From Lineus longissimus (taxonomy: Eukaryota > Nemertea > Pilidiophora > Heteronemertea > Lineidae), in the NCBI RefSeq assembly GCF_910592395.1, contig NC_088314.1, positions 20,418,070 through 20,482,069 of the forward strand: 64,000 bases of DNA, read 5' to 3'. The notes below the pieces were generated by a model, which was not told where the DNA came from, ran no database searches, and was given only the letters and a program-made list of their open reading frames with translations. Of this stretch, positions 10,986-36,574 are shown piece after piece (position 1 is the first letter of the stretch; each line of letters starts with the position of its first letter). The position numbers and the translations under genes were made by a program.

Positions 10986-11912
10986 ATGTCAGGTACCCCT
11001 CTGCTTCTCCGATGCAAGGCCGCAAGTGGTCAACACACAATACGGCAACTGACAAGCGCTTCCACTGTTCATGACCTCAAACACACCCTCAACACCTTGA
11101 CAAATATTCCGCAGGACAGTCTTAAAATATTGGCGGGATATCCACCCAAAATCCTAAACATTGAGAACGACAATCAGCAGTTGGCGAGTTTGTCGTTAAA
11201 ATCTGGAGACGTCTTGATCGTTGAGAAAAACCAATTGGCCAAAGTAAGGCAGGCTGAAGCAGTTCTGCAACACATCGAAAACCAGAATAACTCTCGTGGT
11301 ATCCTGACCAGACAGGTTGTGCCTGCAAACAACTCATGTCTTTTCACGAGTATTAATTTTGCCAGGACGGGAAAGTTGGACCTGTCTGTCGCTGGTGGCA
11401 TGCGGGACCTTATTGCTAGTGTTGTCAGGGGCGATCCAGCAACATATAACGAAGCGTTTCTAGAAAAATCAAATGCTGATTACTGCGCTTGGATAATGAG
11501 TGACGAGACATGGGGAGGTGCTATCGAGGTCGCCATTTTATCGAAGTATTATGGGATAGAAATTGACGTTGTTGAGACACAGGCGGAACGGATTAATAGA
11601 TTCGGCGAGGACCAGAATTATACTCAACGCATTCTTCTTATTTATGATGGGATACATTATGATCCGCTAATGTTGGAACCCATTGATGCTACCACTCCAC
11701 AGACTGTCTTCTCGACCAATGATGAAAGTATTCTGAGTCTTGCTCTGGAGCTGGCTGCCGAGGCCAGGAGTAGCCACCAGTTTACCGATATGCAGGGCTT
11801 TTCTTTGCGGTGTCTGATTTGTCAGAAAGCGCTCACAGGACAATCTGCTGCCCAGGAACATGCCAAGGCAACAGGGCACATCAATTTTGGCGAGTATGAG
11901 GAAGACTCGTAG
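10986..11912 (+). CDS. YOD1: Ubiquitin thioesterase OTU1
   Basis: A single coding exon encodes 308 residues. YOD1 is a cytosolic OTU-family deubiquitinase that works with the p97/VCP ATPase in ER-associated degradation. An N-terminal ubiquitin-like UBX-L domain spans about 5-83 (GYPPKILNI, SGDVLIVE). The OTU domain spans about 108-230, with catalytic Cys118 in NNSCLF and His224 in DGIHYDPL; WGGAIEVAILSKYY is a strong family motif. A C-terminal C2H2 zinc finger uses Cys276, Cys279, His292 and His298. Oddly, the usual Asp of the DxxC motif is Asn115. The start is placed at 10986 because a splice acceptor ends at 10962 and the UBX-L domain follows at once; human YOD1 is longer at its N terminus. 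An AATAAA lies at 12475. Confidence 0.97.
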   Translation: MSGTPLLLRCKAASGQHTIRQLTSASTVHDLKHTLNTLTNIPQDSLKILAGYPPKILNIENDNQQLASLSLKSGDVLIVEKNQLAKVRQAEAVLQHIENQNNSRGILTRQVVPANNSCLFTSINFARTGKLDLSVAGGMRDLIASVVRGDPATYNEAFLEKSNADYCAWIMSDETWGGAIEVAILSKYYGIEIDVVETQAERINRFGEDQNYTQRILLIYDGIHYDPLMLEPIDATTPQTVFSTNDESILSLALELAAEARSSHQFTDMQGFSLRCLICQKALTGQSAAQEHAKATGHINFGEYEEDS

Positions 11913-13476: not shown

Positions 13477-16265
13477 TTAACCATCGAATGAAGAAAGATC
13501 TGGCTTTTCTTGAAGTGGTGGTTCAGAGGCCTGTGCCAGGGCTATGGCATAGCTATAAACTCGTGCATCCACAATGAAGCCCTCTTTGCTTTGCACTGGA
13601 ATGAGAGAGAAGCAGTGAATACTACATAGACTTATGAAGAGCAGGGGCAGTCACAAATAATCTGGGAAAAAATATAAGGAACAACTAACCTCGAAGATGA
13701 TGTGGATGCACCACGCAATGCAGAAAGACGGCTTATCTCAGATTTCAAAGTGATCATTCAAACAGATATTGAGATCAATCTGGAATATTCTGTTATGTTA
13801 TTGAAAAGATGCTGTATCACTCGACCAGAGAACGTCAAAATCTCGCAAAGAAAGGCTCCACCCAAGCCTAGTTAAGTTCACCTACCATTCAAGTAGTTTA
13901 GTAATTCACCAATTGGCACTTTAAGAACTTCAATAAACTCTGAAAGAGGAATAAGAATCATCAGCAATGGCACAACCACTTGAGCAAATAATCAGTGGAC
14001 TTAGTTCACATATATCATAAGTGACCTAAGCTTCTCATGAAGTAACGCTGACAGGGATTAAGTCAAGACTGTCAAGTCTCTGAAAACCCCAAAATTACAC
14101 GAGTACATCAGAAGATTTTCCATCGTGAGGTGTGTGACCTTGACACACAAACTCACCATTTTCTTCAGCTTCTTGAACAGGTTTTTTATTAGCCTTTAGG
14201 TCACCATCGATCTGAAACAAAAATAGCAGCTGGGATTATTCCTCACAAAATTTCCCACACAAAGTATTTAAAATGCTAAGATACAAACAGTGCCATCTAA
14301 GTTTGTTGACTGAGAGCTTTCTAATGAAGTGTATCAGGGATAGCCATTTCTAGGTTTTTACAATGTCAAATGCATTTCTCGAACTTTTAGAATGCAACCT
14401 TTGCTTTTCATGCATCAACTGATGTCCCATCACACAATTCGACCAAAACAAGACACGTACCTCAACAGTAACCATAGATGCAGTACAGTTCCCAGTCCCG
14501 GCATCCAGGGTCGTAACTAAAAGAAGAGAAGTTGAACCAGAATCATAATCCAACTTCAATCAATAATTCTAAAACACTGTGCCAACATTACAATGTTGCA
14601 CTGTTTATAGTCTATGAAGCACTGTGTCTCGTTCTGGCAGCAGGAGTTATGGTTAGGCAACCATGCGTGCATCTTTAATGAAGGAAAAAACGTGATGTTA
14701 TTGGTGCATTCAAGAACTGATTCTTACCAGGCGAGGTGTACTTCACTTTCCCCACGTATCCTGTCTCTTCCTTCAGTTCCCTCACTGCAGTCGACTCCAT
14801 AGATTCACCCGGATCTACCAAACCTGAAAACAATAATGACAAGAATGAATTTTGTGATATTTCAAGACCACAATATTTGATCTCTCAGGAAAGTTACAAC
14901 TGGTTTCAAAGAGCTATGAAATCTATTGGCTGTGTCAGTATTGTGGTCAGAATACAAAAGACGGAGATCACGACCCCTTTCATTTTCAGATTAGTTATCA
15001 TTTCTATTGTAACTTTAAGGTCTGTACTGTTACGTATCAAGTAGAGTTTGCACCCATCCATTGAAACTTACCTGCAGGGAACTCTAAGGTACAGCAGCCC
15101 AGCGGTGGACGGAACTGTTTCACTAAGATGATACAGTCAAACTTGTACATTCTCTTGAGCGTTGGAATGATTATGACGGCTGGAAAAAAGTAGACAAGTT
15201 TAAAGCCAGGTCACCACATGTAAAGGTTTAAAGGCCTACTCTGTTCATTCAATAATTTGGAAATTGAATTTGAAAATTTTCTAAGTAATGAGTTGTACCT
15301 TACCATCACTTCCTCCATCTTTCGATTTCGTTGTCCTTTCAACTCCTTCCCAAGTCCTGAAATTAATCAGAGTGGTTAAATTCCAGCCGAGCCGAGAGAT
15401 TATACCTGCCTGGCCAAATACTAATGTGGTTGAAACCAACAAGAGCCTTCTTCCCCAAGTAGGACACAATAGTGTCAATGAAAGTTCAGCTCTAGTCTAA
15501 ATAACACGAATGGACACTCTACTGTAGAGTGAATTGTATTTGAGCAAAAAACTGCATTATTCAATCTCAGATATTTAGAATATGACATTGGTTCCTACCC
15601 AGCAACAGGAAAGATTTTAGAAAATATTGGATGCTTACCTTTTGTTCCCAAGAGGATCTTGGTATGTTATCAAATTGAGAGAGATCCACTTTCCAGTTGC
15701 AATTTGCTGAAAATAAAACAATGAAATTAAGGATACCAATTGCGTAACTGATTAGCCTGCAATTTACAAGAAAGCTTCAGCAAGTCCTTGCTTGACCTTG
15801 GTGGACAGAGAAGGATGATTTTGAAGAGGTTTGTTTGGGCGCTGATCAGTCACGCGTTTCACCTGGAACAAAGTGTCACAGTAGCTTAAGTCCGAAGTTG
15901 GCTTAGGTCTTCTGACGTGTTTTGAGTGTACGCATTTGTTTTGTTTTGGCGCTGATTCATCTTTGGTTAAAAGGGCCATCGCATGCTGACTTCCGTTCCA
16001 TGTCAACTGAGGCTCACATATACCCATTTTATTTCCCTAGACCAAGGCAAGTGCCACTACAAGTACTGATGGTCAGAAAAAGGGAATAAATAGGTAATTT
16101 TGTATCAATCGAGGAAGCTGTTGTCGAGAGCTGTAACAAAATACAGTGTGGTTGCATAGATGGTTGTCACACCTGTTGGTCCAGTGTCTTCGCATCCGTA
16201 GATTTAAAGGCCGCTTTCTCTTTCTTCATTGGAGGACTCTTGGTGTCGTCGCGTTCATCTGCCAT
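13477..16265 (-). CDS. NUDT5: ADP-sugar pyrophosphatase (Nudix hydrolase)
   Basis: Nine exons, in transcript order 16173-16265, 15639-15706, 15304-15356, 15072-15179, 14728-14823, 14461-14516, 14157-14211, 13886-13939, 13477-13595, encode 233 residues (human about 219). NUDT5 hydrolyses ADP-ribose and other ADP-sugars. The Nudix box GX5EX7REUXEEXGU is intact: Gly108, Glu114, Arg122-Glu123 and Glu126-Glu127 with Gly129. Family landmarks flank it: [29 protein letters not shown] and near the C terminus [13 protein letters not shown]. The first Met used is 16265 (MADERDD), but the frame stays open upstream to an ATG at 16493, adding 76 residues rich in Ser, Arg and Lys that look like a mitochondrial presequence. 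The gene is divergent from the SMYD4-like gene. Confidence 0.95.
15825..15980 (+). repeat. Dispersed repeat family R1, copy 1
   Basis: A roughly 150-base segment in NUDT5 intron 1 (TTTGGGCGCTGATCAGT at its left, GGCGCTGATTCATCTTTGG at its right). It aligns over most of its length to copies at about 44030-44160 (reverse orientation) and 62790-62950. It has no coding support and its ends are not precisely defined. Confidence 0.7.
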
Positions 16266-17432
16266 CTTTAGATCTTGCACAATCGTGCTGCAAAAACGTC
16301 CTAACCTTTGAAGACCGAATTTACTGTTAACTGTGAATGTGGCAGCAGTAGGCCTATGTTGAACTTTTGAACCCTTCTTTGGGTTGAGAATTTTCGAAAA
16401 CCAAGAGGAACTGGCGGCGTGACGACCAAATATTTGAGTGTTTAGACGACAACAGGAGAGATAAGAAGAAAGGAGATTTGTGCTAAAGTTCATCTGATGG
16501 CTAACTTTTGCCAAATAAAGGGAAACTTAGCAGCAAAGAACCAGAAACACGTGATATTGATAAAATTTCGTGTCATGCTACTTCGCCCACGAACCCAAAA
16601 CTTGACTCTCAGTTCCATCGCCAACCAATAGTCGGCGCTACAAGCTTCGAAAATTTCTTGAAGAAGTCGGCTTCAAAAACTTGCCGATTTTACCAATTAA
16701 TTCAAAAGCAAACGTCACAAGTTTGTTGGTAGGTAATATTGACCATATAGCCGTAGTTTTTCAGCAAAACCCATTGCAAAATATTTAGCATGTTGTCTAA
16801 AATCGGACGCCGAAATATATAAGATTTCTGCTAGGAAATGTCTATGTACTAGGGGTATACACTGTTGCAGTGGTGCTAAAAATAGAACACAGGTATGGGA
16901 TACCCTTATATAGATCCTGGTATCTTTCTACAAGGTTCTAAGGTAGATCTAGTACATGAGAAAACCTTTACCAGTATATAACTATTACCAAAGTTGTTGT
17001 CGTGGCAATCTAATTATTCCAATAATGGTTTCAGATTATGATAAAGTGACACACCCCCTTCATAAATTTTCATGGTTAGGACCTCTGGCCTGTCAATTTA
17101 TTTTCAGCATTGATTCATCATAGCATAATTTTTGTAATCAGAGATTAGAAAATATTGAGTTGGGAGGATAGAGTCAGCTAGGACATTGTAAGCTCTATGA
17201 ATGATTTTGAGCGATCGATTGTATTAAGTAGGAGGAAACCTACGCCTACGTCGGCCAAGTTGCCTTCGCTTTTCTTAAATGAAAAAGTAATTCCAACAAG
17301 TCCTTTACCAATAGATGATCCTTATGCAATATTTCAGCAAAGAGACTTGGAACTTTCAAAAATTCGCCATTAAATGTATTTTGCAACTTTTGTCTTTTCA
17401 GATTCATCAGAAGAAGGCGAGTCAAAGTTACC
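16266..17432. other. Divergent promoter region between NUDT5 and the SMYD4-like gene
   Basis: Both genes start outward from this interval. A splice acceptor (TCTTTTCAG) ends at 17402, 30 bases before the SMYD4-like ATG, so that gene has a 5'UTR intron. The NUDT5-side frame is open as far as 16493. No TATA box or other clear element was found. Confidence 0.45.
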
Positions 17433-19460
17433 ATGGCCGAGATAGAGATATCAGGAGGGGTGTTCCATAACTTCTACCAAACCATATCGGAAGAGCTGAA
17501 ATCCTCGGGAAAGTTAGACGAACTCTCAGCTGAATTTGCCAAACTCAAAACTGACGAGGAGCGAGCAAAGTTTGTTCTTGAGCTGGAGATCGTAAATGAA
17601 ACGATGAAAATTGAGGAAAACTTTAATGGGAAGTCGCTGGAGGAAGCTAAGGTTTTGAGGGAGAATGGCAACCAATCCTTTCAGAAGAAGTATTACTATA
17701 ATGCGTTGCAGCATTATAATGATTGCATAAGGAAAGTTCCGTTAGATGCTGATAATCCAGAAGGGAAGAATGAGCTAGCTTTGGCGTATGGGAACAGATC
17801 TGCTGTGCTGTATCATTTGAAGGACTATGAGCAGAGCTTGATTGACATTGGCCTTGCTCTTGAGTGTGGGTTTCCACCAGAGTTACATTTCAAACTCTAC
17901 GACCGCCAAGGGAAGTGTTATCGTGAACTCAAGAAGAAAGGGGATGCAGTCGCTGCTTTCAAGAAGGCATCTGAGCTGCTGCAGCAGTCGAACCTTGACG
18001 AGAGTAAGAAACTAAACTGGGAAAACGACATCAGGACGCAAGCGGAGGCTTGTCAGAAATTGTCGGCAGAGAAGCCGAAAACAAAAGACTCTCAGAAGAA
18101 CATTTACAAAAAGCCGAAGATTCCAGTCTTTCCTCCGAGTTGTAATAAAAATGATAAGTTCCCATGTGCGAGCGCTGTTTTTGAGTTGAAGGATTCAGCA
18201 GAGCAAGGACGCTGTGCAGTTGTGAGTAAAGATGTCAGAGTTGGTGAGGTGTTGATCGTCGAGAAACCATTTGGTTCTGTCTTACTGGCTCCGTACTACA
18301 TGACCCATTGTTACAACTGCATGAAACGCACCATTGGCACTTATCCGTGTCCCAATTGTTGTACCGTTAACTTCTGTAGTAAGGAATGCCAGCAGGTGGC
18401 GTTGGATTCCTTCCACAAGAACGAATGTAAATACCTTAGTAACATCAATCTTACAGACAACTGCTGGGGGCACCTTGTTCACCGTGTCATCCTTCGAGCC
18501 GGGTATGATAAACTCACGTCGTTTAAGGAGTATTTGAAAAATGAAGGTGGTAACGTAGATTGGAATAAATTTGGTTGTGGTGACGGTGACGTTTGGGCTG
18601 AGAATGATCTGCGTACCGTGCGCTCACTCATGACACACGATTCTGACCGTACCCCAGCTGATCTGTTTTTAAGGGCGATCAAAGCAGTGTTCTTACTCAA
18701 GTGTCTTCAAAAAGGTGGCTTCTTTGGCGAGGAAGCCAAATCTGAAGATGTGGTTTTTGTTGGTGGGCTTTTGTTATCGCTCCTCCAACTCTGCCCATGC
18801 AATGCTCACGAGGTCTCCGAAATTGAGGTTTCAAGAAAAGGCATACGCCACGCTAAGTCGTTAGAAATTGGTGCTGGTCTCTACCCAACGATGAGTTTGT
18901 TGAACCATTCATGTAACCCAACTGTTGTCCGCCATTATTATGGTGATGTTTGCGTTGTCCGTGCCATCCGTAACATGCGTAAAGGTGAAGAGATAGTTGA
19001 TAACTACGGTGCTCTATGGGCGGTGCATCCCAAGAAATTCCGCCAAGATAAATTAAAAGATCAGTATTATTTTAACTGCCAATGCGACGCTTGCCTTGAT
19101 GACTGGCCGATATATCCTGAAATGCCCGATAACATGCCTCCAGCTCTGAAATGTGAGAAATGTAGCGAGCCGTTACTTCCCCAAGAGAACACAAACTTCA
19201 CTGCCTACCCTTGCACCCAATGTAAGCACAAACATGACATGTCGAAAAAGTTACTCGTCCTCGAGCGTTCGCATGAAGTCTTTTCTGAAGCGATGGATAA
19301 AATGTTGAAAGGCGACGTTGAGGATGCATTGCCGGTGTTTGAACGCCACCTATGGTTGATGGAAGAATGTTTATGTCTTCCCTGGAAGGATTATAATAAC
19401 TGCCAAGAGGCGGTGAAGCATTGTTATGCAGTCATGGCAAACTGTAAGAAAATAGATTAA
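17433..19460 (+). CDS. SMYD4: SET and MYND domain-containing protein, SMYD4-like
   Basis: An uninterrupted coding exon of 675 residues. SMYD4-type proteins are candidate lysine methyltransferases that join TPR repeats to a SET domain split by a MYND zinc finger. TPR-like helices span about 70-180 (ALAYGNRSAVLYHLKDYEQS). The MYND finger spans about 293-332 (CYNCMKR, CPNC, CSKECQ, HKNEC). The second half of SET holds the cofactor-binding NHSCNP at 491-496 and the DNYG motif near 523. A post-SET cysteine cluster (CQCDAC) lies at about 549-554, then a second pair (CEKC) near 574. The intronless CDS with a 5'UTR intron is unusual beside its intron-rich neighbours. Human SMYD4 is longer at 804 residues, and orthology versus a SMYD4-like paralogue is not settled here. 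Confidence 0.93.
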   Translation: MAEIEISGGVFHNFYQTISEELKSSGKLDELSAEFAKLKTDEERAKFVLELEIVNETMKIEENFNGKSLEEAKVLRENGNQSFQKKYYYNALQHYNDCIRKVPLDADNPEGKNELALAYGNRSAVLYHLKDYEQSLIDIGLALECGFPPELHFKLYDRQGKCYRELKKKGDAVAAFKKASELLQQSNLDESKKLNWENDIRTQAEACQKLSAEKPKTKDSQKNIYKKPKIPVFPPSCNKNDKFPCASAVFELKDSAEQGRCAVVSKDVRVGEVLIVEKPFGSVLLAPYYMTHCYNCMKRTIGTYPCPNCCTVNFCSKECQQVALDSFHKNECKYLSNINLTDNCWGHLVHRVILRAGYDKLTSFKEYLKNEGGNVDWNKFGCGDGDVWAENDLRTVRSLMTHDSDRTPADLFLRAIKAVFLLKCLQKGGFFGEEAKSEDVVFVGGLLLSLLQLCPCNAHEVSEIEVSRKGIRHAKSLEIGAGLYPTMSLLNHSCNPTVVRHYYGDVCVVRAIRNMRKGEEIVDNYGALWAVHPKKFRQDKLKDQYYFNCQCDACLDDWPIYPEMPDNMPPALKCEKCSEPLLPQENTNFTAYPCTQCKHKHDMSKKLLVLERSHEVFSEAMDKMLKGDVEDALPVFERHLWLMEECLCLPWKDYNNCQEAVKHCYAVMANCKKID

Positions 19461-22000: not shown

Positions 22001-24958
22001 ATGAACTTCCTCTGGGAAAGTAAGTATAATGACAAAAACAAAAAGGAAAAAGTGTAATAATTTCATAAAACATTCTGCGTTCGCGTTAGACCACTCGGAT
22101 TGACTTCGTCCTCTTCAGCAACAGCACTGACACTGGAGAAGTTACTTCGAAACAAGAAACAAGCGAATTGCCCGGGCAAAACTCCTCCCGTAAGTGTTTT
22201 AAGCGCTTCGGAAGATAAGCGTAAAATGCCAGGCAAGAACGAAAAATGCCTCACTGAAGAAGGAAACAATCCGTGAAAGAATGGTAACTACCATGCACTA
22301 AAGAATGAAAACGTTCACCGAAAAGTACACGAAAAATGCCACTACATCAAAATTTCCCTTAAAGAATGCCAGATGATGTTCACTAAGTACGAAAGATTTC
22401 ACTATTATGGTGGAACATGTCACTGAAGTGAGAAAAGTGCCATTGAATGACGAAAAAATCCGCTATTGTATTACGACTTCCGATATTTGGATGATTTACT
22501 ACTTACAATTAACTGAAAAACAGAGTTTTCTGAATGGAATGTCAGCCATTCGTAGTAAAGCGGTTCAGTGAAAGCACTTCAAAAAGCAATTAAACTCGTA
22601 AGTGTGTTTTGTCGATTGTCATGTCAGATAATAGTTTCTCATACAAAGTTGTTAAAGGCGACTTGCCTCTAAAATTTACATATACATGTATAACTTGATT
22701 TTGAATTAAAATGTATAAATGAGCTTTATACATTTTTGAGATTTGAAGGATGCAGCCTGAGTTTTGTATGAGGACCCTTGATACAATATACCGGTACATG
22801 CAAACTTGGTCGCGACATGGGTCTATAGTGATTCGCCAAAGCAGACACAATATTTAAGCATATTGCAGTATAGGACCGCCTCACCACACTGCGCCGGAGT
22901 ATGGGGTCTAGTGTCGAGTTATTGCTCCAGTATCGTAATCTAATCCTAAGATTCATTGTTTTTCATATCGAGAGGCGGCAGTAGGCCTATATTGAAAACA
23001 TCCCTGATTATACCAGGATGTGGCATTCTCTATTTCCCATTAACCACCAGCGGCCGAATCATGTGAACAACATGTTAGAAATCTTAGAGCAATTCAATCT
23101 CGGATAGGCTGTCGATTGCAATTGAAATTTGTTTCCAGATACAAATGTAACTGTTAAAACTACAAATTCTCATGCATTTTACGAACTTTTGTTTACAGAG
23201 AACGTTTGGTTAATTTGTTTGCCATGTTTGTCTATGGTAATCGCTGCCCCGGGATTCAGACGAATTCAACAGGATGAGACGTCATGTCAGATTTCCTCTG
23301 CCGACTGGAACGCACCATGCGGTGACCCGCCCATTGGAGCAGCCGCAGCGGTCATGCAGCCATTTTACACTGTCAACCTCAAGGATTTCGCGATCCAAAT
23401 GGACATCATCAGGGAAAGATTTGCAGAAATGAAGGCTCACTACGTAAGTGTTAATCCTTGGCCATGGGTTCACACAGTCTCACGCATACTCCATGGAAGT
23501 ATCATTAGTCCTAACAAGCAACTCGCTTCCCCAGACACAGATCGCACCCTCCTTCTCCATACATGTTTCCCTCCTTTTTTTGACCGGGACAACTGGGGCG
23601 TGGAATTTACCTCGCCGGGAGAATAATACCCCTGTTTGCCAACATGCGCCGCCACTTGTTACACTAATGCTGATCTCTTATAGTAACTTTCGCCATGTTG
23701 CGGGCAGTTTAGGACGTGGCTTGTGAATTTTATGCAGGCGTATGGATACACCTCGCTCCGGTGCATTGTTTTTATATTGCTGTTCAATGATTTTTGAATT
23801 ATCCTGTTCGGAGAAGTCACGGTCCTGCTGGGAGCCGTGCAGTTAGTGAGAAAAACCAACATATTATCTCATGTCAAGTTGGCCTTTAAGCAAAATGCTG
23901 CCTTCCTTTTCCATACAAGTTCCGTTCTTTATACTCGTCTAGCGGGAAATATAATCACTACTTACAGCCCACGCCTCACTGAGATATTTTGCCTTTCCAA
24001 AATAAGCACGCACGTTTATAACGAATTTCATATTTGTTATCACTCTCCTCTTTCAAGGTCACGCACAATCTCAATGGCGACATAGTCTTCGCCAGCTACT
24101 TGGAAAAACAAGCCAGGGACAACCCAGTCATTCCGCTGCAGAATGTGACGTCATTCGTCGAGTTTGATGGTTCTGTCATCAATGGATTGATGATAAATAA
24201 CATGGTGAGTGCATCAACAGAGAATTAAGAAATAGAGAGGTTACGAGATCGTCTCGCTTATGCTAACGATCTCAACGAACTGACACCAAGATTGAGCTCA
24301 TTCTTCTTCTTGGGAGCTAAGCTTCCTAAGCTCCAAAACACCGTTGTACCCTGATGTGGGCAGTTTCGGAGAGGGGACATGGTTTTGTTGGGGTTTCATC
24401 AAGGGTTCCATAAAAACCCCATTTCTGTTCGATGGCTTAGTGCTGCGCTCTGGAGGATATTCTCTGAACTGAGCTTGGAAAAGCGGTTCTTTACTTAAAC
24501 TTTCACAAGCCCAGGTGTTATTTTGAAGCCCATGTGGTATTATTTTGAATGTTAAAGTATTTTATTACCATACGTTCTTTATCTCTTTCAAGATTGTGAA
24601 GACATACCACTTGCTAGCAACAACAGATGCTCACATCGTGGTCATCCGAGGAGAGGAGTCGCACGAGGTGGACGGGAGCTGGAAAGATGGATGGGTAACC
24701 ATCCACAAGAGGCTGCTGAATCTTCTGTGTACTTTGGACGGCGAGGCGTGGAGTAGGACCATTCCCCGTCCATCGCTTCACGTGATCGACTCGTGCGTCA
24801 CAGAGCACTTTCACACAACTGCGCAGAATCAAGGAGAAAGATACACACGTGACTTCAGTTTCCTTGCAGAAGGCGAATGGGTGACGGCTTCGATGAGAGA
24901 CTTTTTTCAAGAGGTTTATGATGCTTTGAAGGAATCGGATGTCACCATGATACAGTAA
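22001..24958 (+). CDS. Candidate class I helical cytokine, gene A (secreted, unrecognised)
   Basis: Four exons, 22001-22019, 23199-23443, 24058-24204, 24593-24958, encode 258 residues; intron phases are 1, 0, 0. I do not recognise the protein by sequence. Exon 1 (MNFLWE plus one base) ends at a strong GTAAGT donor, and joining it to exon 2 gives a signal peptide (NVWLICLPCLSMVIAAP). Exon 2 then has a W-N-A-P-C motif and a charged helix (KDFAIQMDIIRERFAEMKAH). Exon 3 reads as a loop with a sequon at NVTS. Exon 4 starts IVKTYHLLATTD and ends in a helix with MRDFFQEVYDALKES. The helix, loop, then several helices order, the secretion signal and the exon plan fit class I cytokines; exons 3 and 4 also parallel genes B and C. 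Possible AATAAA at 25495. Function is inference. Confidence 0.74.
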
Positions 24959-25365
24959 ACTATACATGTAGGAATCATGTATACCAGTACTGCATATTGC
25001 AGGATCACTATATTTTATATATAAACCCAATTTGTGGCGGGTTATTATTAGTTTATACTTGGAGTAACTAGCCTAAGGTTGGTTTCTTTAAGATTTATAC
25101 CAGTAATTCAACAAATTTATATCTCTATACTCAAATATGTGGCCAAGCATGTTGAGGCCTGTGCGTCAAAAACACTGCATATGGTGTACTGTACTGTACA
25201 TGTAGTTTCCGTGCACTTCTTGCAGGATTATGTTTCCCCAAAAACACTTTAGAAGTAGTGTTTTTGACTTCTCGTCCATGTACTCTACTTTTTTAGATAC
25301 GGCAAAGGTTGATCACTCGATCACCGTGTTTACTGATATATATCATGATCAGCATTCCCTCGTAT

Positions 25366-25443
25366 TTATTGACATTGCTCAGCTTCCAGACAACGCGTGT
25401 CAATATGGAAGGAGGCTATGGAGGCAATACCGCTGGAATTTCA
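25366..25443 (+). repeat. 78-bp duplicated segment, copy 1 (3' flank of gene A)
   Basis: This stretch is about 90 percent identical to 33373-33450 on the minus strand. Both copies are open in one frame with the peptide QLPDNACQYGRRL and are in the sense orientation of the adjacent cytokine-like gene. Here it lies before the AATAAA at 25495, so it may be in the gene A 3'UTR. I do not know what it is; a coding role is unlikely. Confidence 0.7.
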
Positions 25444-25499
25444 GTATGATATCTCAGTAAAACCATATACATTGTAGCGCATTTAGCTTATCTAAATAA

Positions 25500-27681
25500 A
25501 TAGTTCATACGATACTATATAATTGGCTCGGGACTTTCTTTCATATAGGACTTCTAGTTCCTTCACAACGGGCCATCATCTCTATCTTTTCGCGGATGGA
25601 TAACCACCTCAAAAACTGTCTGACCAATTGCAATTCAGAAAGATTCAGAAACCAATTAATCAGGACTGAACTGGTAAAAACCATCCATCTCCTCTTCCCA
25701 GCATGCACCGCGCTAAACCCGGTGTGGGCGCGGGAGAGAACCAACCAATTTGTTCTTCATTTTCCTTGCATGGACATTCCAATGAGATCGTCTGCATCAC
25801 ACGGGAAAATCCAACATTTTGAGGTCGAATCCCGATCATCTCCAAATGCCCTGCAAGCATATGATATGCAAAAATATAAAGTGGGCAGAAAAAAGGCGTA
25901 GACTGCCCGTATCTGCCCGAACTTTGACCCTCGTCGTCCTGCATCTAGCCAATCAGACATTCTGCATCTCGGATCCGCCGAATCCTTCTACAGGGGTCGA
26001 ATCCCGATCATCCATTAGTTTCAATCTCGGAACATGCAGAATACCGGCCGTCGGCAACTGGCGCGATACGTAATCTAAAATAGCCATGGCGTGACCAAGA
26101 ATGCAACTCTGTGACTGGTAGCAGGGAATCAAAGCAAGCGAAGACGTGCGCTGACTTCACCCCCGCATACGTGCTATAACCCACGTCTTAAAACGCGGCA
26201 AGATATAAAGATATTTACTATTACAATGAAGACAGGAAAATAGTATGACCGTATATCGTATACAGATGACAATAATCGTGCTGCATATATCACGTGGCCC
26301 ATTTTATCGCCTACGTGCCAAAATTACGTCTTAAGTGGGTCGGATTCCCAGGGGTCGGTTTCGGCGATTTTGCCGATGCTTGGTCAACCAAAACGTGTAA
26401 ACATTTAATGATTGATAATCAACAGTATCGAACTTCTGTAAATTCGTAACAGAAATGACGTATTTGTTAAGTGATTTTCAGCTGCATTTGATACTTAAAG
26501 AGCAGCGGATTGATTCCTATTAAAAGCCGTCCTGATATCTTTCAGAGGCGACTGGACGTAATTTTTGGTCAGCATTTAGTAGTATAAATCCTTATAGAAT
26601 CAGACATATACTCCACCCAATCCAAATTTGATCGAAATCGATCCACCTCGTCCAGAGATACCCCAAGAGAAATGTTTGTTGCATGTTATTGCTTTCCTGT
26701 TTTGGTGTCAAAGAGACGTCAGACAGCGGGTTTACTTTCACTGACTTGGCTGGTTATTGGACTAAATGATAGGTGTATCATGTTCAGGACCCTTTTGGTC
26801 TTCCCCTGGCAGCTCAGTAAGAAGGGCTATCATATGTAAAGGCAAAAGAAACTAGAACATTTTCTAACCCGGCCTTTGTAAAGTAGACCTGGTACAAAAT
26901 CAAAATACATACCGCCGGGGAAGGAACCGACCCCGGAACTAACTCAAAGAAAACATCAGAACAAAAAAGATTTTGGCCATCTCTTTCCTTTACATCACTC
27001 CACCTTTATATTTCCTTATTTCCTCTTATCTGGAAGATTACAACATCCAAAAAACTGATATTTACAAAAAGAGGGACTTGTTTTTTAACTCGGGATTTCG
27101 CTCAGGGTCTCGCAATGCCTCGCATATAAAACGATAAAGAATATCGGTTTCGCGGAATTCGGCCTATAGATATCTTAAAATACGGTACTTATTATCCTAG
27201 AAGCTGTAGTACGAGTGACCCATAAAAACGATGAATGACATATAATCGCTTCATTGATCCGCGTTGACCCGTGGAGAGCAGGCATAACAGATCTCACCCT
27301 CTCCAACCCTGATTGGCGGCTTAGCTCAGTCAAAGTGGGGAACCGAAACTTCCGGAGACGCCTACTTTGACTGACGGCATCGACTGACAATTTCATACAA
27401 TCTTATTTTGATATTACAGAGGTATATACAGTTATCAAGGCAAAAGAATGTTGCAGAAGGGTACCCCCGGTTTCGTCGAGGAGTTTCAATTCCGATTCGT
27501 ATCCTATAAAATGCAGTCCAGAATGCAAACCTTCAGAAATTTCCGAAATCCGAGGAAAAGTAAACAGGACAGAGAGAAGAAGAGCAATATCTTTAAAAAT
27601 TCATTTGACAATATTTTGAAAATTTTCATTTTTGACAACACCTGACAACTTGATCTCACCGTCGACGAGAATTCACTCAAA
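25500..27681. other. Intergenic between genes A and B; no gene seen
   Basis: No exon is supported. A 17-base motif GTCGAATCCCGATCATC occurs twice, near 25823 and 25997. The rest appears unique and AT-leaning. The proximal promoter of gene B should be the last few hundred bases, but no TATA box stands out. Confidence 0.45.
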
Positions 27682-29879
27682 ATGGGTATGTACAATTATC
27701 TCATTGTCCATTATTGTTTGGGACACCTCAGGCGCATGCTCAGTTTGCAGGGTGGAAGCATGCACCCAGCGCAGTGAGCTACTGCGCATGCCCGGCTATT
27801 GCGCCGAGATATCCAAAAAGTGGTTTATACTTCTTATTCATTCATGATATGATCTGAATTGTCCTCTCAGTTATGTTGGCTTTCTTCCTTCAGATCTCAA
27901 AAAGCGCCTGATACGCAACATTGCCATAATCATTGCATTAGTGTCCATGATGACGCCATCACTCTCGGGGTCCCCCGTCCTCTCCCGCCACCACTACTGG
28001 AACGATCCCTGCGAGAACGGTGATCGGCCGATGGATAACCCTCCGCCTTCGAAAGGAGTGCGATTCTTCCAAGAAGAAGCTGCGAACCTCAGAAGAATCA
28101 CATGTTTTTTGGAGCGAAGGGAACGAGCTTACGTAAGTTGCTTTTGAAAACACTCTCTCATTACTTTTACAAACGCGTAGGCCTATATTCTGAAATATAA
28201 TAATAATAGATAGGTGCAGATTCGGACCACGAACGACAAACGTGGACGGGACTAATCGTGTGGGAATCATATCATTCTCGTTCACGTCGTCGTGCGTGTT
28301 TGGTGTATTTGTACCTCCAGCCCTCACCGCGTATTCCAAATATTTCGGTTTAACACGCCAGCAATCATCATTTAGACTCCCGGAGCAGTCCATTGCGTCA
28401 CCTTAATTGGATCTCCTTGTGGAGGCCGGTCCACTGCGTCCAGAGTGTATCATAATTGGACTCAAATGTCAACTCATATTGACACCACGTGACCTAGGCA
28501 TGATCGAAGCATCAGTTGTCCCGACCTTTCCGAGCATAAATTAGGACCCGCTAAGATTTGGAATGCTTTTGGTTATTCGGAGCTGATCCGAGTAAGGTTT
28601 CTAGTCGGGGATGTAAATATAAACCTGTTTCACTTAACTTTATAGAATCCATATAACGGGCCGAGCCCTCGCTGTACCCCTGAGGAGAGGGTGTGGAATC
28701 CTAGTCCTTGGTGTCCCCAAGCCAGACAGGTAAGCAAGAAGATAACCAATATAGTTGAGGCTGAATCTTACAAATAATGCTTGCTCTGTAGCTGTATTCA
28801 CGAGCGGTATGGAACATTGTTCCTTTCGCGAACCTCATTAACTGGTTCTGCTCCAAATTGCATTGCCTCCTTATAGACAGCTGGAGAGATAGGGTAAAAC
28901 AGAGAAAAATCGAGGCCCGATAGTAACTCAACCTCCTCGTCCTTCAAAACATGTACAATTTTCGCGGGTATTTTGCAGACTCGCGCCAGAATTATACACC
29001 GAGAATACCTCGACTGCCTCGACGTAAATTACCCATTTGTGGAAGGTTTGCCGGCGGTTCCTGACCATAGCATTGACCTGCACAATAAGGTATGTATTGA
29101 ACGGCTTTTGTGAGGTCCTGACATCAATACGAGGTTATTGCATCATTTATCATACAAAGGCACAAAGGCAAATCCTGAAGAAAAAATCATGTCGGACAGT
29201 TGGAAAATTTGGCTATATGCATGGTCTCAAAAGGCCTTGAATCGCCCACGTGAACGCCTATATCCGATTGTTCGACTTCAGGAAGTCGAACAATCTTGAT
29301 CAACTGCGAATATATACGACAACCAAAATTAGTTATGCATGAGCGATAACGCGTACGAATAAAATGATTTTGTCTTCATCGGACATCGTGTGAGGACTGT
29401 ATTAGCCACTGTTTAGAGAAGAATAGAGAAGGCGTGGTGAAAATTGCTCTTCGCTCTTGTTGTGCTCTTGGTGTGTTTTGATTCTATGTTAAATCTTGCA
29501 GGAAGAAGATGTCATAAAAAACGCAACGGAAGCACTCATGAAAGTAGCAGTGTTCAACCAGCAGATTGTGAGAGACGAGGCGATGTTTGAAGTTAATTCG
29601 GTATTTAAGAGGTCCTTTGAAGAAATGGCTGCGTACTACCAGGACAGTTTGTGCCAGTTTCGCGAAGAGATGCGGGCAAGGAGAATTAGCGCTCCAGATT
29701 CCATGGATTTCGGTGTCATTCCAATGCAGCATAAGTCACGGATTTACAGGGAAGATCGCAGCAGACGACACGACCGGGATTATACCGTTATCCGTGATAC
29801 GCAGAAGGTCCTACTGGGATTAGTTCACCAGTTTGAGAGACTTGCTCGCGCGGAACCGGCGTACTATCGTCGACGGTAA
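27682..29879 (+). CDS. Candidate class I helical cytokine, gene B (secreted, unrecognised)
   Basis: Four exons, 27682-27685, 27894-28132, 28979-29089, 29502-29879, encode 243 residues; intron phases 1, 0, 0. Exon 1 codes only ATG plus G before GTATGT. Exon 2 gives a signal peptide (KKRLIRNIAIIIALVSMMTP), a W-N-D-P-C motif shared with gene A, and a helix ending FLERRERAY. Exon 3 (YLDCLDVNYPFVEGLPAVP) recalls the A-B loop of CNTF/CLCF1-type cytokines. Exon 4 reads as three amphipathic helices: about KNATEALMKVAVFNQQIV, SVFKRSFEEMAAYYQDSL and IRDTQKVLLGLVHQFERL, the helix B, C and D pattern. There is a sequon at NATE. The tail ends in RRR. This copy looks most like a vertebrate-type four-helix cytokine, but the assignment rests on architecture, not clear identity. 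Confidence 0.76.
29266..29295. repeat. Perfect 14-bp inverted repeat in gene B intron 3
   Basis: GATTGTTCGACTTC is followed after two bases by its exact reverse complement. It could be a foldback relic or a protein-binding palindrome. Confidence 0.8.
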
Positions 29880-30555
29880 GGTATGTGTGGAGGCTGTGGG
29901 GCGTGCTATGGGGGAGGGGGGGGGGAGGGAAAAAACCTCTGGTAGAACAGCTTCCCACTTCACGTTATTTTCGTCCAAAATCTTTATAAAAAACACGTTT
30001 GAATGACAGATCTAGATCATTAAGTCAAAGTTACCCTCACTCGGCCAATAGCCCTACCAAGGAATCTCATATATATATATATATCGAATCGTTTCGAGGA
30101 AGTTGACCCACATTCTATTCAATGATTTCTTTGATGATTTTGTGAATGAAAGTCTTTATTGTGTATGCGCAGATACAGGTATAAAGAGTGTAAATCAATC
30201 ACGTATTTTGATACCGGTGTAGCAGTCTAAATTGTCCCCTGGAAAAAGTGTCCAGCACTATGTATTCTGAAGGATTTTGCTATGTGGCTCTATAGAGACC
30301 ATGACCGTCAAAATAGAATCATTTGGGTCAATAGTGGAATCCCTGACAAAGCCTCAAAACTATCATCACTGCCAAAAGGTTCTATGGCTGACCTTAACCA
30401 AAACCCCTCCTCGAAGCAATTTGTCGGGAACTTTTTCAATCAAGCCATCCATTAATTGTTTCCCGGACATTCTATCCTATAGGACATTTTAAACGTTTAC
30501 ACTGGTCAGTTGGTCGGGATTGTACCAGTGAGATCTCTTTTTACCGGACGTCTTA

Positions 30556-30914
30556 TGTGTAAATGTTATTTGTGTGTAAATATTATTTATGTGTAAATGT
30601 TATTTATGTGTAAATGTTATTTATGTGTAAATGTTATTTATGTGTAAATGTTATTTATGTGTAAATGTTATTTATGTGTAAATGTTATTTATGTGTAAAT
30701 GTTATTTATGTGTAAATGTTATTTATGTGTAAATGTTATTTATGTGTAAATGTTATTTATGTGTAAATGTTATTTATGTGTAAATGTTATTTATGTGTAA
30801 ATGTTATTTATGTGTAAATGTTATTTATGTGTAAATGTTATTTACATGTATGTGTAAATGTTATTTATGTGTAAATGTTATTTATGTGTAAATGTTATTT
30901 AAGTGTAATGTTAT
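30556..30914 (+). repeat. 17-bp minisatellite with ATTTA in each unit, downstream of gene B
   Basis: About 20 head-to-tail copies of TGTGTAAATGTTATTTA, nearly identical in the centre and degenerate at both ends, with a short insertion near 30840. Each join makes TTATTTATG, containing an ATTTA pentamer, and each unit holds TGTAAATG, close to a Pumilio site. The array lies between the gene B stop (29879) and the first AATAAA (31176), so it may be transcribed in the gene B 3'UTR. Confidence 0.93.
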
Positions 30915-31175
30915 CGCACAATCTTGTAATGCTATTTGTAATGAATGTAATGCATCGCGTAGTTTAATCTACTTGTTTCGGGGATGGGATATTTAATCAA
31001 TGCTTGATACTGTCATATGGTATTTTACAGTACTGTTTTATTGTCAATGAACTGCATAATAGCGTTTTTTTGTTAAGTTATACTTGTTGGAGTATTGGTT
31101 TAATTTGTCGACATTTGACGACATTATCGTTGGAAGTGTGTTAAATATACTTGAGTAGTTTGCTTGGTAGTGAAG

Positions 31176-31181
31176 AATAAA
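31176..31181 (+). other. Candidate polyadenylation signal of gene B
   Basis: First AATAAA found downstream of the gene B stop codon, about 1.3 kb away. If it is used, the 3'UTR would include the 17-bp repeat array. Confidence 0.45.
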
Positions 31182-31272
31182 AGAAGAAACGAAAATACAT
31201 GACTTGTCTTCCTACATTGTTTTTCTTCTTCCTCATGAAAACTGCCAAAAGAAATTTGATGAAACAGTGCAT

Positions 31273-31345
31273 GTCCGTCTGAGTATCGAACCTACGAGAT
31301 CCTGGTTATAAGCCCGGCGCTGTAAACACTCTGCCACTGACCCCC
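31273..31345 (-). repeat. tRNA-derived SINE head
   Basis: The minus strand shows an A-box-like TGGCAGAGTGTTTACAGCG and a good B box GGTTCGATACT with correct spacing, and a TTAT-type anticodon-like loop. The acceptor stem does not pair, so it is not a working tRNA gene. Confidence 0.55.
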
Positions 31346-32238
31346 TTCGTCGAGAATAATCGGAAGTACGTGTATTTGGAGCCGGAACTATTCGGAACAC
31401 TGATACCCAAACGCTGACCGTCGGCATCAGCACCGGCAGCAGAAACATACAACGCCATCTCGCCAAGAGGAATCGGAGACTGCCCGAACGTTTCCGAAAA
31501 ATACCGAATGAAATCATTCTGGTGTCGATGCCGATGCTGTGCATGTGCCGCCGTCATCAGTCAAGAGGAATCGGAGATTGTCCGATTGTTTCCGATCATT
31601 ACCAAATTGAATCATCTCCGATGCGATATGTACCGGTGCCGGTGATGCCGACGCTGTTTCATGCCGTCATCCCCAAAGGGACACACATCAACGGGGGTTC
31701 CACTGTAGATGTTGATCCTTACAGCGATAATTTTATAGATTTCTTATAGATTTGGCAATAGATTTTAGCTCATACCATGAGGCGCCTGTCCTCCTTCCCC
31801 AAATCTGGCCTGACGTTCACCAGAGACATTGCAATAAAGTTAAAATAAAACGATTGCATTATGGCATATGTAAAGTGTATTTCCATTATAGAATATTGTA
31901 CAAATACATTATTCACCAATATTGACTAGGAGTAAATATAGCGAACGTCTGAAACAAAGTATACATTTTGATATAATTTGATATGGCACTATTTAAAACC
32001 AAAACGAGGCGATTTTCGGGTAAACAACAATAACTTCCGCTGTGTATTCACAAACCGACCAACAGCAATCCGAAACCAACTTTAATTGTACATTTTAATT
32101 ATTGCAGACATACAGGGCAAACTAGAGTAGGCACCCTATTCCACTAACACATAAGTAGTCCACTGAGAATCAACCAATTCCACTTCCAGTCTTTGCACGA
32201 ACTACTTTCACTGGACAGTTTATCGCCGACTCCTTTTG

Positions 32239-35200
32239 TTAGTTGTCACAGATAGAGAGTGAACACATTTCGTTGAAAACCTGAGCATAGTGTTGATATG
32301 TGTGGTTCGAATCCCTGATCAAGAGGTAAAGAGTTCTCGAGGGACTACCAGGGGGCGTGCCATCTTTGGGTGGGGGAAAGTTAGTCGGGGCAGTCACCAT
32401 ATTATCGAATTTGAATAGACCTTGATCGTTCGTCGATGGGTTGAGTTTGACTTCTATTCTTGCTAGGATGTCTCGCGAGATATGCCACATGTCCGTGACT
32501 TGCTCCTTGAGCCCAGTCATGTTCTGCATCGAGTTGAGTAGGGACGAGGTCAGGATAAAGTCAGTCGAAGCTTTCCTCAGGGTTTGGACGACCTGTAAAG
32601 AGGAAGATGACACGGTTCCTTGAAGGACAGGTATCAATTTTTGCCAGCCTGCCGGCGGTCTGTTAACTGAACCACACCCGCCGAAAGGCTTACAACTTAA
32701 CATCGTTCCTTGAGCGACAGGTACTAAAGTATCAATATTTACAAGCCTGCCGGCGGTCCTGGTTCCTTGAAGCACACTCGCCGAAAGGCTTGCAACTTAA
32801 CATGGTTCCTTTGAGCGACAGTACCTCTGGCTTAGATGTGAGGGGAGACATTGATATGTGTACTGCTAAAAACTGTCTAACAATGCCAAAGCATGTTAGA
32901 TACAAGCTAAAAGGCCTTGGGCACCGAGGATGTATAAAAATATAAGAAAGCAAAGGGGCCTTTGCGGATCTACTGGGCATCTCCAAAACCGAATGCCGAA
33001 TGTATTGATGACTTTCGAATGCTCATTAACTACTTGACCGCGCCCAGGGAAACACAGAAACGTTGACGCAAAATGGCATTTCCCAAACCCAGTATTGTTT
33101 TATACTCACATTACACATGTCATATCCGCCTGTTGTAGAGGGCAGCACCGGTGTGATGTCTAACCTGGGCAGTTTGTTAAGCAATCTCATGAAAGCCTCG
33201 TCTTTCGCTTCTGCTGCTAAGAAAGTCATAACCTGAAATAGGAATGGTGCGCAAATTGGTATGCTGTAGTATTTTTTACAGTGTTGTATACAACAAGGCC
33301 CAGGAAATCTGTCTTCAAGGGCTTACATATAGAAAGGAAAACCTTTTGCCCGCACATATCCTCTCTGAACTTCCAGTGGTATTGCCTCCGTAGCCTCCGA
33401 CCATATTGACACGCGTTGTCTGGAAGCTGAGCAACGTCAATGCATTGAGGGTCAAGATGCACATATCTGGAATTATTCAGGCCGTGGAGGACGCGGCCTG
33501 GGGGTCAAGTCAGCCTAGCCAAATAGTGTTTGAATAAGATTCAAGTGCGCGTTCACAAACTGCCCAGTTATCGATCAAGTCATTCGAACGGTTTCGTCGA
33601 ATTGGCACCATTATAAAAAGAAACTAAACGGGCCAATCGGATCCATTATTTTGCGATGAATTAGATCAGATGACGCCATCCAAGGCAGAGAGTCCCCTCA
33701 CGTGCTACGCGAATCACAATAACATTTTTCGAGGCGGTGCAGGATGGTACTCCTTTATCATTCCCGTTTTTTCTCTCAAATATTCCATGATAAAAGTGAT
33801 TTAAAAAGGATATTCTGAAACCGGTGCTCCTAAAGCTCCATCTTATGTTGACGTAAGTATGAAACGTCTTTTCCCATGAACTTTTCGTAAATCTGTCGCC
33901 CAGTAATTCAAATTATGGCGCAGACAGTGTTCTCTTAATTCTTCTATTTAATGATCTAATGACCAAAAAACTAGTTTGTGATGCTGACAGTGGACAATAA
34001 AAAACATCAATATATCCCCAGTCTGGTGTTTTTTTCATGAAATTCGGTTTGATATTATGCAATTTATTGATGATTTGGTCAGTCGAAACGTATAGGAGCT
34101 ACATCTAAAATTGTGCAGTGGCAGAGGCAATGGATGTATTCCATGCAGGTAACCAAAATGCTAATATATTCATGGCATGTGCGAAGAAAATATTTAAAAT
34201 ACAAAATTTGAGTACCAAGTCATTCAATGTTCTAGTTTTCTATTTGATAAATATGTTTTACTGAGTGGAAGTCAGGATGCATTTTGAGAAGATGTGTACG
34301 ATTTCTTTTGAAATTCTCTTCATTGGTTGCCAAGTGTGAACTCTTCATTGGTTGCCAAGTGTGAACTCTTCATTGGTTGCCAAGCGTGAACTCTTCATTG
34401 GTTGCCAAGCGTGAACTCTTCATTGGTTGCCAAGCTCGAACTCTTCATTGGTGGCAAAGCGTGAACTCTTCATTGGTTGCCAAGCGTGAACTCTTCATTG
34501 GTTGCCAAGCGTGAACTCTTCATTGGTTGCCAAGTGTGAACTCTTCATTGGTTGCCAAGCGTGAACTCTTCATTGGTTGCCAAGCGTGAACTCTTCATTG
34601 GTTGCCAAGCGTGAACTCTTCATTGGTTGCCAAGCGTGAACTCTTCATTGGTTGCCAAGCTCGAACTCTTCATTGGTTGCCAAGTGTGAACTCTTCATTG
34701 GTTGCCAAGCGTGAACTCTTCATTGGTTGCCAAGCGTGAACTCTTCATTGGTTGCCAAGCGTGAACTCGTCATTGGTTGCCAAGCATGAACTCTTCATTG
34801 GTTGCCAAGCGTGAACTCTTCATTGGTTGCCAAGCGAGAACTCGTCATTGGTTGCCAAGCGTGAAATTAGAAACTGCCTCCATTTTTCCAAGTGTCTGTT
34901 ACATGGCGACGATAGACTTGAGGCTAGGATGATAGGGATGAACTGGACCCAAGTTGAGAGAAGTGCCCAGGACAGGAGGAAGTGGAAATATCTTGTTGGC
35001 GACCTATGCCCCATTTGAAGTAACAGGATTTAGATCAAGTAAGTGTCTTTATCATAAAGAAGCTGGTTGGTTATCCTTTCAAAGAGGCAACGTTGCAAAT
35101 ACCAGATTAAGATAATTTCACGACATTATTTCGATTTTGAATAGCTTACCAATTTATTCTTCAGTTCTTCTGATCTGCGAATGAGAAAGCCTGTTTTTGT

Positions 35201-36574
35201 TGCAAGGAAGTGGTAGAGATCTTGGTCTGGTGGTAGCCCTGGGCAAAGTGTTGTTGTCATGGTTACAAGGGGGGCTGTCAGAATCATCTTGATGGTGGTC
35301 AAACCAACGAGGAATAGAAGAACTGAAACAAACAAACAAAAACATAGAAAGACATATATGAGATTAGATTCACTGGTCGGTCCTAAAGCTTAAAATGGCT
35401 TCTTTCAGGTCTGGTTCAATTTCTTATGCATGGTCCATCAGACCCTGTCGCCGCTGTCTTTTCTTAACATTAGTTCTTCGATTGAATTCGAAGAAATTGA
35501 TTATTAGCCCCTGACCTACAACTTATTTCCTTAGTGTTGGATGCTTGCCATACTTTGTTTGCCAAAAGTCAGAATTTAAGACACTTGGAAGCATCGCTTT
35601 CCAAAATATAATTCGTTTCGAAAAACAAATATTTTAAAAATTGGAAATTTCCCAAAAATATTTCAGATTCAGGTTCAGTTAGAAAATGTTTTAACGAACG
35701 GAGTAGGCATTTAAGGCAAAATCTTTAGCGATTATGGAGAGGGGGAAATTGGTTGTAGGAGCCATGTTCTGTTGAGCATAATGGAAAAGAGCGGCATACA
35801 GTTTAAGATTAAGAACTTTTTCGAGTTTTAGGTTTAGAAAAGCGATAGGAAATAAATGGATTCGATATTATTCACTTCCTTTGTTCAATTTAGCCGGCGC
35901 CATCTTGTTCCTGTACAGAAGGCAAAAAAGTAAACTATTTTCAAACTCTGTTCAACCAACAGCGGAAGAATAGGCCTACTTGGAAAGCTGTGCAATTGGG
36001 TTTTTTCATTTTCAAGAAAATTAAATTTCTTATGATTTTTTGAGGGTGCTTAAAAAGAAAATTTGATTGTTAAGCTGATGCCTAAATTATTTTTTAAATT
36101 CAGTAAAATCCAGGGCAACAAGATCTCAAACCAGGACGCAGTTTGTCCGATGTCATTCAAAACTAGAAGTAGTAAGGGAATTAAGTGGAAAATCGAGTAG
36201 GCCTATAATATTTTAAGAAAAGCAAGCCTAATTTACCAGGTCCTTGATTTTAAGAGTAACAGATGTTCTGAAAATCATTGAATCTTACACTCCATAAGTT
36301 TACAAATCAGTCACACCAATACCATACAGTTCCGAATGCTTGATCTCCTTGCGTTGAGATTGTTAAAGATTTTAAGAAATAATTAAAACAAAGCAAAAAT
36401 GTGTTTTTGTGTCAGCTTAATTTTTTCTTTAAATTCAAAATACAGAAATATTAACAAATAGACTTTACGCCTTCATAAGTTGTCCAGCAGAAAAATGAGC
36501 CCGCGAAATTTTGAAAAAGTATAAAATTAATGCGCGTGGTAACTTCTGCAACGAAATAACTTACCCAGCTTCAT
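32239..36574 (-). CDS. Candidate class I helical cytokine, gene C (secreted, unrecognised)
   Basis: Four exons, in transcript order 36565-36574, 35150-35322, 33110-33232, 32239-32592, encode 219 residues; intron phases are again 1, 0, 0. Exon 1 (ATGAAGCTGG before GTAAGT) joins in frame to exon 2 to give the signal peptide MKLVLLFLVGLTTIK. Exon 2 continues with a helix (FLATKTGFLIRRSEELKNK). Exon 3 has a short helix and a proline-containing loop (LPRLDITPVLPSTTGG). Exon 4 starts VVQTLRKASTDFILTS, parallel to IVKT...ATTD of gene A, and ends with a helix YLLIRDSNHTYQHYAQVF, parallel to YTVIRD of gene B. There are sequons at NMTG and NHTY. The opposite orientation to A and B means at least one inversion in the cluster. 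Function is inferred from shared architecture. Confidence 0.74.
32605..32825. repeat. Tandem duplication in gene C intron 3
   Basis: Two roughly 105-base units each contain CCTGCCGGCGGTC, CCGAAAGGCTT and CAACTTAACAT in the same order. They follow exon 4's acceptor side in genomic position and have no coding support. Confidence 0.7.
33373..33450 (-). repeat. 78-bp duplicated segment, copy 2 (gene C intron 2)
   Basis: Reverse-complement match of about 90 percent to 25366-25443. It lies in the intron between exons 2 and 3 of gene C, in the sense orientation of that gene. Confidence 0.7.
34312..34866. repeat. 25-bp minisatellite in gene C intron 2
   Basis: About 22 head-to-tail copies of CTCTTCATTGGTTGCCAAG plus CGTGAA, with point variants (GTGTGAA, GCTCGAA). 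Every unit contains ATTGG, an inverted CCAAT box, beside GTTGCC. There are no spacers, so this is not a CRISPR array. Confidence 0.95.

Follow-up and report, generated by a model that had tools for sequence, protein, structure and literature searches.

Does a cluster of three adjacent genes in the nemertean Lineus longissimus encode helical cytokines, that is, signalling ligands which, if confirmed, would belong to a type seldom recognised outside vertebrates? The genes, here called A, B and C, lie in a 64,000-nucleotide stretch of a 391-Mb, 30-contig assembly (C7:20418070-20482069; in the following, the window). The original prediction, made from the letters alone, had read them as a small family of LIF/CNTF/CLCF1/IL-6 type cytokines. 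We lean towards a broader interpretation, in which they form a fast-evolving, helical-cytokine-like family of small secreted four-helix proteins, with class I favoured but not proven. This interpretation is carried by spliceable gene models, hydrophobic N-termini, last exons with a coding bias, and introns of phases 1-0-0(-0) behind a minute first exon, and it would liken the three proteins most to long-chain class I cytokines of the IL-6/GH/G-CSF grade.

The exon-intron structure of the models matches that of helical cytokine genes

Among the features of the locus, the intron pattern, which had played no part in the argument of the original prediction, appears to us to fit helical cytokines best. 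A, B and C each start with a minute coding exon (19 nucleotides (nt) in A, 4 nt in B and 10 nt in C), which ends in phase 1; the intron phases are 1, 0 and 0 in A and C and 1, 0, 0(, 0) in B, and the last exon comprises 117-125 codons. GH, EPO, IL-6 and LIF likewise begin with a very short coding exon, have a phase-1 intron behind it and continue with introns of phase 0 only, and the models of A, B and C all show this layout of helical cytokine genes. According to the accessible parts of the respective articles, IFNL2/3 have a four-residue first exon, a phase-1 intron and otherwise phase-0 introns (PMC2654155), and salmonid IL2 has three phase-0 introns (PMC6070626). Since the layout thus occurs in class I as well as in class II, it supports the assignment to helical cytokines in general and not to class I alone. 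In the case of interferon-lambda, gene structure is described in the same part of the article as having backed the status of a helical cytokine where BLAST failed (PMC2654155).

A scan for this architecture, which covered both strands of the window and of 130 kb on each side (324 kb), was passed by five loci, namely A, B, C and two others. A stricter version had found only C, and the thresholds were then loosened until the known splice sites of A and B passed, so that the scan is not blind to these two genes. Both additional loci were read as artefacts: the one just upstream of the window seems to consist of internal exons from a gene of von Willebrand A type, and the one about 11 kb downstream is a tandem repeat. 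In this downstream flank, about 11.3-13.0 kb beyond the end of the window, a long tandem repeat has two frames on the same strand that each stay open for more than 500 codons.

Hydrophobic N-termini, helix content and predicted fold

The precursors of 219-271 amino acids (aa) start with a strongly hydrophobic segment (best 11-residue Kyte-Doolittle mean of 2.6-3.0), as expected for small secreted proteins of about 140-230 residues in the mature form. This hydropathy supports the signal peptides that had been proposed.

The helical nature of the proteins is less clear. Residues 67-89 of A are helix-prone, and the helix propensity of A, of the 243-aa form of B and of C was reached by 4.7%, 0.7% and 0.3% of 300 shuffled sequences, respectively. 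However, this test is not diagnostic, because three control cytokines (sequences entered by hand, as in the profile test below) were no better than their own shuffles (CNTF 40%, CT-1 14%, IL-6 11%). The amphipathic helices claimed for the last exons found no statistical support, with 17% (A), 14% (B) and 7% (C) of the shuffles being as amphipathic as the candidates (controls: CNTF 41%, CT-1 0.3%, IL-6 0%).

AlphaFold2 predicted helices at residues 2-29, 33-59 and 86-117 for exon 5 of B alone, with a predicted local distance difference test score (pLDDT) of 59.9, and at residues 2-19, 26-50 and 99-111 for exon 4 of C alone; the latter model was set aside for the fold search because its pLDDT of 36.8 was too low. 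Three helices in one last exon are also known from LIF and CNTF. The structure matches of exon 5 of B were considered for the best 50 of 425 Foldseek matches and the best 50 entries of 906 aligned chains, and among these CNTF was the sole cytokine, without any interferon.

Sequence and profile searches bear on the class assignment

Secretion, size, the helix-loop-helices order and the clustering of the genes fit helical cytokines, and to this extent the original assignment stands. Several results, however, weigh against its narrower LIF/CNTF/CLCF1/IL-6 form. Among the structure matches listed for exon 5 of B, CNTF is on a par with ferritin-like and Dps folds. No Pfam family matched A, B or C at E ≤ 10, the HMMER filters discarding most matches above an E of about 0.1; an assignment to the ferritin/Dps family was likewise rejected on this result, despite the ties at the level of the fold. 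In alignments to a CLCF1 profile, built from 29 of the 120 listed proteins of the control search described below, A, B (271 aa) and C remained within the range of their shuffles (40 per candidate). Finally, the F-x-x-K motif, which at the start of helix D marks LIFR binding in LIF, CNTF, CT-1 and CLCF1, occurs nowhere in A, C or either form of B (243 or 271 aa). With regard to the profile, CNTF and CT-1 were recovered at an E of about 1e-7 and G-CSF marginally at 0.007, whereas LIF and IL-6 reached 0.18, the same as the candidates. Because the profile fails on LIF and IL-6, the miss disfavours a close relative of CNTF or CT-1, not a class I cytokine as such. The likeness between FVEGLPAVP of B and VDGVPMAS of CNTF, on which the original prediction had drawn, lies in the modelled exon at 28979-29089 and is too short to be given weight.

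Searches for relatives beyond the locus gave little. Chains of the PDB matched at E ≤ 10 numbered three for C, one for A and none for B, and none was meaningful, the best (E of 0.43 and 0.54) being antibody light chains and a ribosomal protein. In a set of 5.8 billion proteins, including nr, UniRef and EukProt animal proteins, nothing was found at E ≤ 10 for C (155 candidates) or A (106 candidates), which bears only on relatives sharing short exact words; the control CLCF1 retrieved 168 proteins at this threshold, 120 of them listed. A whole-genome search with A and C at E ≤ 10 matched each gene to itself alone.

The strongest alternative is that the three are commonplace secreted alpha-helical proteins restricted to their lineage, such as those of coelomic fluid, egg or mucus, without cytokine descent or function, which share their exon pattern through one duplicated ancestor and resemble cytokines by chance. 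The lack of detectable relatives of A or C, the ties with ferritin-like and Dps folds and the general knowledge that a phase-1 intron at the signal peptide followed by phase-0 introns is not exclusive to cytokines all speak for this explanation. Yet chance would have to bring together the tiny first exon, the phases 1-0-0(-0), a putative three-helix last exon, the size, four cysteines and the tandem clustering, and C keeps the pattern without sequence similarity, as rapidly evolving cytokines do. On this evidence we regard the alternative as unlikely, albeit one to be taken seriously.

A and B are related in sequence, C by place and gene structure

Kinship within the cluster is indicated by a 93-column alignment of exon 4 of A with exon 5 of B, which contains a single one-residue gap and reaches a z of 4.0-4.6 (0-1 of 500 shuffles as good). 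In addition, a W-N-x-P-C motif lies upstream of putative helix A in both proteins. The relationship is limited by the full-length global alignment of A and B, which is no better than that of shuffles, and the third exons of the two genes show no similarity. C resembles neither A nor B in sequence. Searching the six-frame open reading frames of the window with phmmer gave no convincing cross-match among the three: A found exon 5 of B at an E of 0.84, behind an unrelated frame at 53033-53191 (E 0.12), and B found exon 4 of A at 1.7, behind an unrelated frame at 14696-14824 (E 0.52). A search for paralogs in 60 kb of flanks had a best E of 0.22. The proposed family of three is therefore supported in sequence for A and B, and nothing but its place and gene structure links C to them. 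In our interpretation A and B are probably tandem duplicates, and C would be an inverted duplicate of greater age that has lost its similarity in sequence.

Gene models and coding potential

Models of the three adjacent genes can be built at the predicted positions, and all ten introns of the models have GT-AG borders (Table 1). The splice sites were picked by hand with the finding already known, and splicing is inferred from sequence. A (plus strand, 22001-24958) encodes 258 aa and C (minus strand, 36574-32239) 219 aa, whereas B (plus strand, 27682-29879) yields 243 aa if its optional exon is skipped and 271 aa if it is included; the predicted range of 219-258 residues thus applies to A, C and the shorter B, but not to the longer form.

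Table 1 Exons of the gene models A, B and C. Positions refer to the window; helix and loop assignments are putative.
Feature	Position	Strand	Description
Gene A exon 1	22001-22019	+	19 nt coding, phase-1 end; ATG, donor GTAAGTAT
Gene A exon 2	23199-23443	+	Signal peptide, WNxPC motif, putative helix A; acceptor and donor; hydrophobic core 2.65
Gene A exon 3	24058-24204	+	Phase 0-0; putative end of helix A and AB loop (assignment inferred)
Gene A exon 4 incl. stop	24593-24958	+	Putative helices B, C, D
Gene B exon 1	27682-27685	+	4 nt coding (ATGG alone), phase-1 end, donor GTATGTAC; weakest exon
Gene B exon 2	27894-28132	+	Signal peptide, WNxPC motif, putative helix A; hydrophobic core 2.96
Gene B optional exon 3	28646-28729	+	28 codons, phase 0-0, good splice sites; possibly a cassette exon or absent
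Gene B exon 4	28979-29089	+	Putative AB loop, contains FVEGLPAVP
Gene B exon 5 incl. stop	29502-29879	+	Putative helices B, C, D
Gene C exon 1	36565-36574	-	10 nt coding, phase-1 end
Gene C exon 2	35150-35322	-	Signal peptide and putative helix A; hydrophobic core 2.65
Gene C exon 3	33110-33232	-	Putative end of helix A and AB loop (assignment inferred)
Gene C exon 4 incl. stop	32239-32592	-	Putative helices B, C, D

Coding potential was assessed with a score of codon usage, for which two long single-frame genes in the window with Pfam support (OTU1/YOD1-like and SET/MYND) served as training set, and the null consisted of three draws from each non-coding open segment (10 segments for exon 4 of A, 7 for exon 5 of B and 11 for exon 4 of C). 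All ten tested exons scored above the mean of the non-coding open segments. The scores of the last exons were reached by 0 of 30 (A), 0 of 21 (B) and about 1 of 33 (C) null samples, and the shorter exons were individually unremarkable, with 7-39% of the null samples being as high. The first coding exons fall below the length that the score can test.

These data bear on a further alternative, namely that one or more of the models are wrong, either because C or the 4-nt first exon of B represents chance frames or because the exon at 28646-28729 alters the protein of B. In its favour, the splice junctions are predicted from sequence, the first exons are of a length that the score cannot assess, and exons 2, 3 and 4 of B score close to average (27-39% of null samples as high; 39% for optional exon 3 and 36% for exon 4). 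The consistent excess over the null mean in ten of ten exons and the coding-like last exons argue against faulty models, as does the fact that only two loci besides A, B and C pass the 324-kb chain scan, and we judge such errors improbable.

Comparison with known cytokine systems

From the IL-6-type long-chain class I cytokines (CNTF, CT-1, CLCF1, LIF, IL-6 and G-CSF) the three proteins differ in lacking sequence or profile similarity and the FxxK motif, and from LIF and CNTF also in an extra phase-0 intron in the region of the AB loop. Invertebrate precedents are few. Beck and Habicht reportedly obtained an IL-6-like molecule, an echinoderm cytokine activity, from Asterias forbesi in 1996, and we know of no gene that has been assigned to it; a link to A, B and C would be speculation. 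This starfish molecule is cited in the accessible part of a review (PMC9465101). A survey from 2026, as far as its accessible part goes, lists IL6R in molluscs, sea urchin, acorn worm and tunicate, confines IL6 to jawed vertebrates, places Unpaired in insects, and records no IL6-like ligands for most invertebrates (PMC13203501). The sea squirt is described, in the part of the article at hand, as having two class I receptors, one GP130-like and one CLF-3-like (PMC1963337). Unpaired, the Drosophila ligands of Domeless, are presented in the same portion of the survey as invertebrate ligands for an IL6R-like receptor (PMC13203501), and would share with A, B and C the proposed function. Among the titles listed for invertebrate helical cytokine ligands (in one case the best 25 of 4,071), with subscription journals mostly outside the coverage, none described A, B and C.

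IFNL2/3 resemble A, B and C in the tiny first exon ending in phase 1, the subsequent phase-0 introns and the arrangement as a gene cluster, and are described, in the accessible part of the article, as lying below BLAST detection against other helical cytokines (PMC2654155); they differ in that their fold is of class II and their helices are spread over more exons. That A, B and C themselves are class II (interferon/IL-10) helical cytokines, given a phase-0 intron series common to both and a first exon and phase-1 intron like those of IFNL2/3, we hold to be very improbable, since the IFNL family has, in that same part of the article, five conserved exons dividing the helices (PMC2654155), whereas A, B and C seem to place three in the last exon, and since CNTF and no interferon stood among the structure matches listed, where other families may be unlisted.

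Proposed signalling mechanism and significance

If A, B and C are indeed a helical-cytokine-like family, helix A of exon 2 would pack with helices B, C and D of the last exon into an up-up-down-down bundle, and the secreted ligand would bridge cell-surface receptors of the gp130/IL6R type, upon which JAK would phosphorylate STAT, with a possible role in immunity or growth. On the side of the pathway, one STAT_bind locus was found in the genome (two candidates scored). A single such locus is more in keeping with an invertebrate than with a vertebrate, as is the lack of relatives of A or C in a protein set rich in vertebrate sequences. The gp130/Domeless-like receptor with a WSxWS motif that the original prediction had suggested looking for did not emerge: a genome search for IL6Ra-bind gave two matches of 18.0 and 17.4 bits, below the cut-off of 24.3, and WSxWS occurred in none of the six frames of either stretch (2,001 and 1,001 bases). 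Both candidates were read as chance matches, one of them overlapping, in another frame, an apparent retroelement reverse-transcriptase frame. This miss does not equal the absence of a receptor, because the domain may be split by exons and diverges fast.

A stronger claim, which we put forward tentatively and consider possible rather than probable, is that A, B and C are true homologues of the vertebrate class I helical cytokines, having kept the ancestral gene structure and lost recognisable sequence similarity. In that case no such ligand genes would have been recognised in the lineage before, the invertebrate gp130/IL6R-like receptors would have gained the ligands they lack, and kin in other phyla could be found via gene structure instead of sequence. 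A ligand family at this locus would also show that the class I ligand-receptor system is older than vertebrates and that exon phase detects cytokines missed by sequence searches, and it would supply gene candidates for the old reports of invertebrate IL-6-like activity.

Repeats and neighbouring genes

Scans of the window for tRNA genes and Rfam families gave no matches. The OTU1/YOD1-like gene lies at 10935-11909 (open frame of 325 aa, Pfam match) and the SET/MYND gene, which we take to be SMYD4-like, at 17319-19457 (713 aa, Pfam match); an LLPH-like exon is located at 57627-57932 and an actin-family exon at 61274-61666. An inverted repeat of 77 nt with 92% complementarity links 25368-25444 downstream of A with 33365-33441 in intron 2 of C and is probably a dispersed element. 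Tandem-repeat arrays follow B (about 30555-30905, GTGTAAATGTTATTTAT units) and occupy part of intron 2 of C (about 34330-34870, CATTGGTTGCCAAGCGTGAACTCTT units). The palindrome TAGGCCTA, possibly a lineage-specific repeat or motif and reminiscent of ambulacrarian genomes, occurs 9 times in the window against 0.4 expected from dinucleotides. Elsewhere in the genome, 150 of 549 candidate matches to fibronectin type III were scored, and more than 100 of these fall within about 130 kb at C15:10301110-10434263, a cluster which probably represents one giant titin- or twitchin-like gene.

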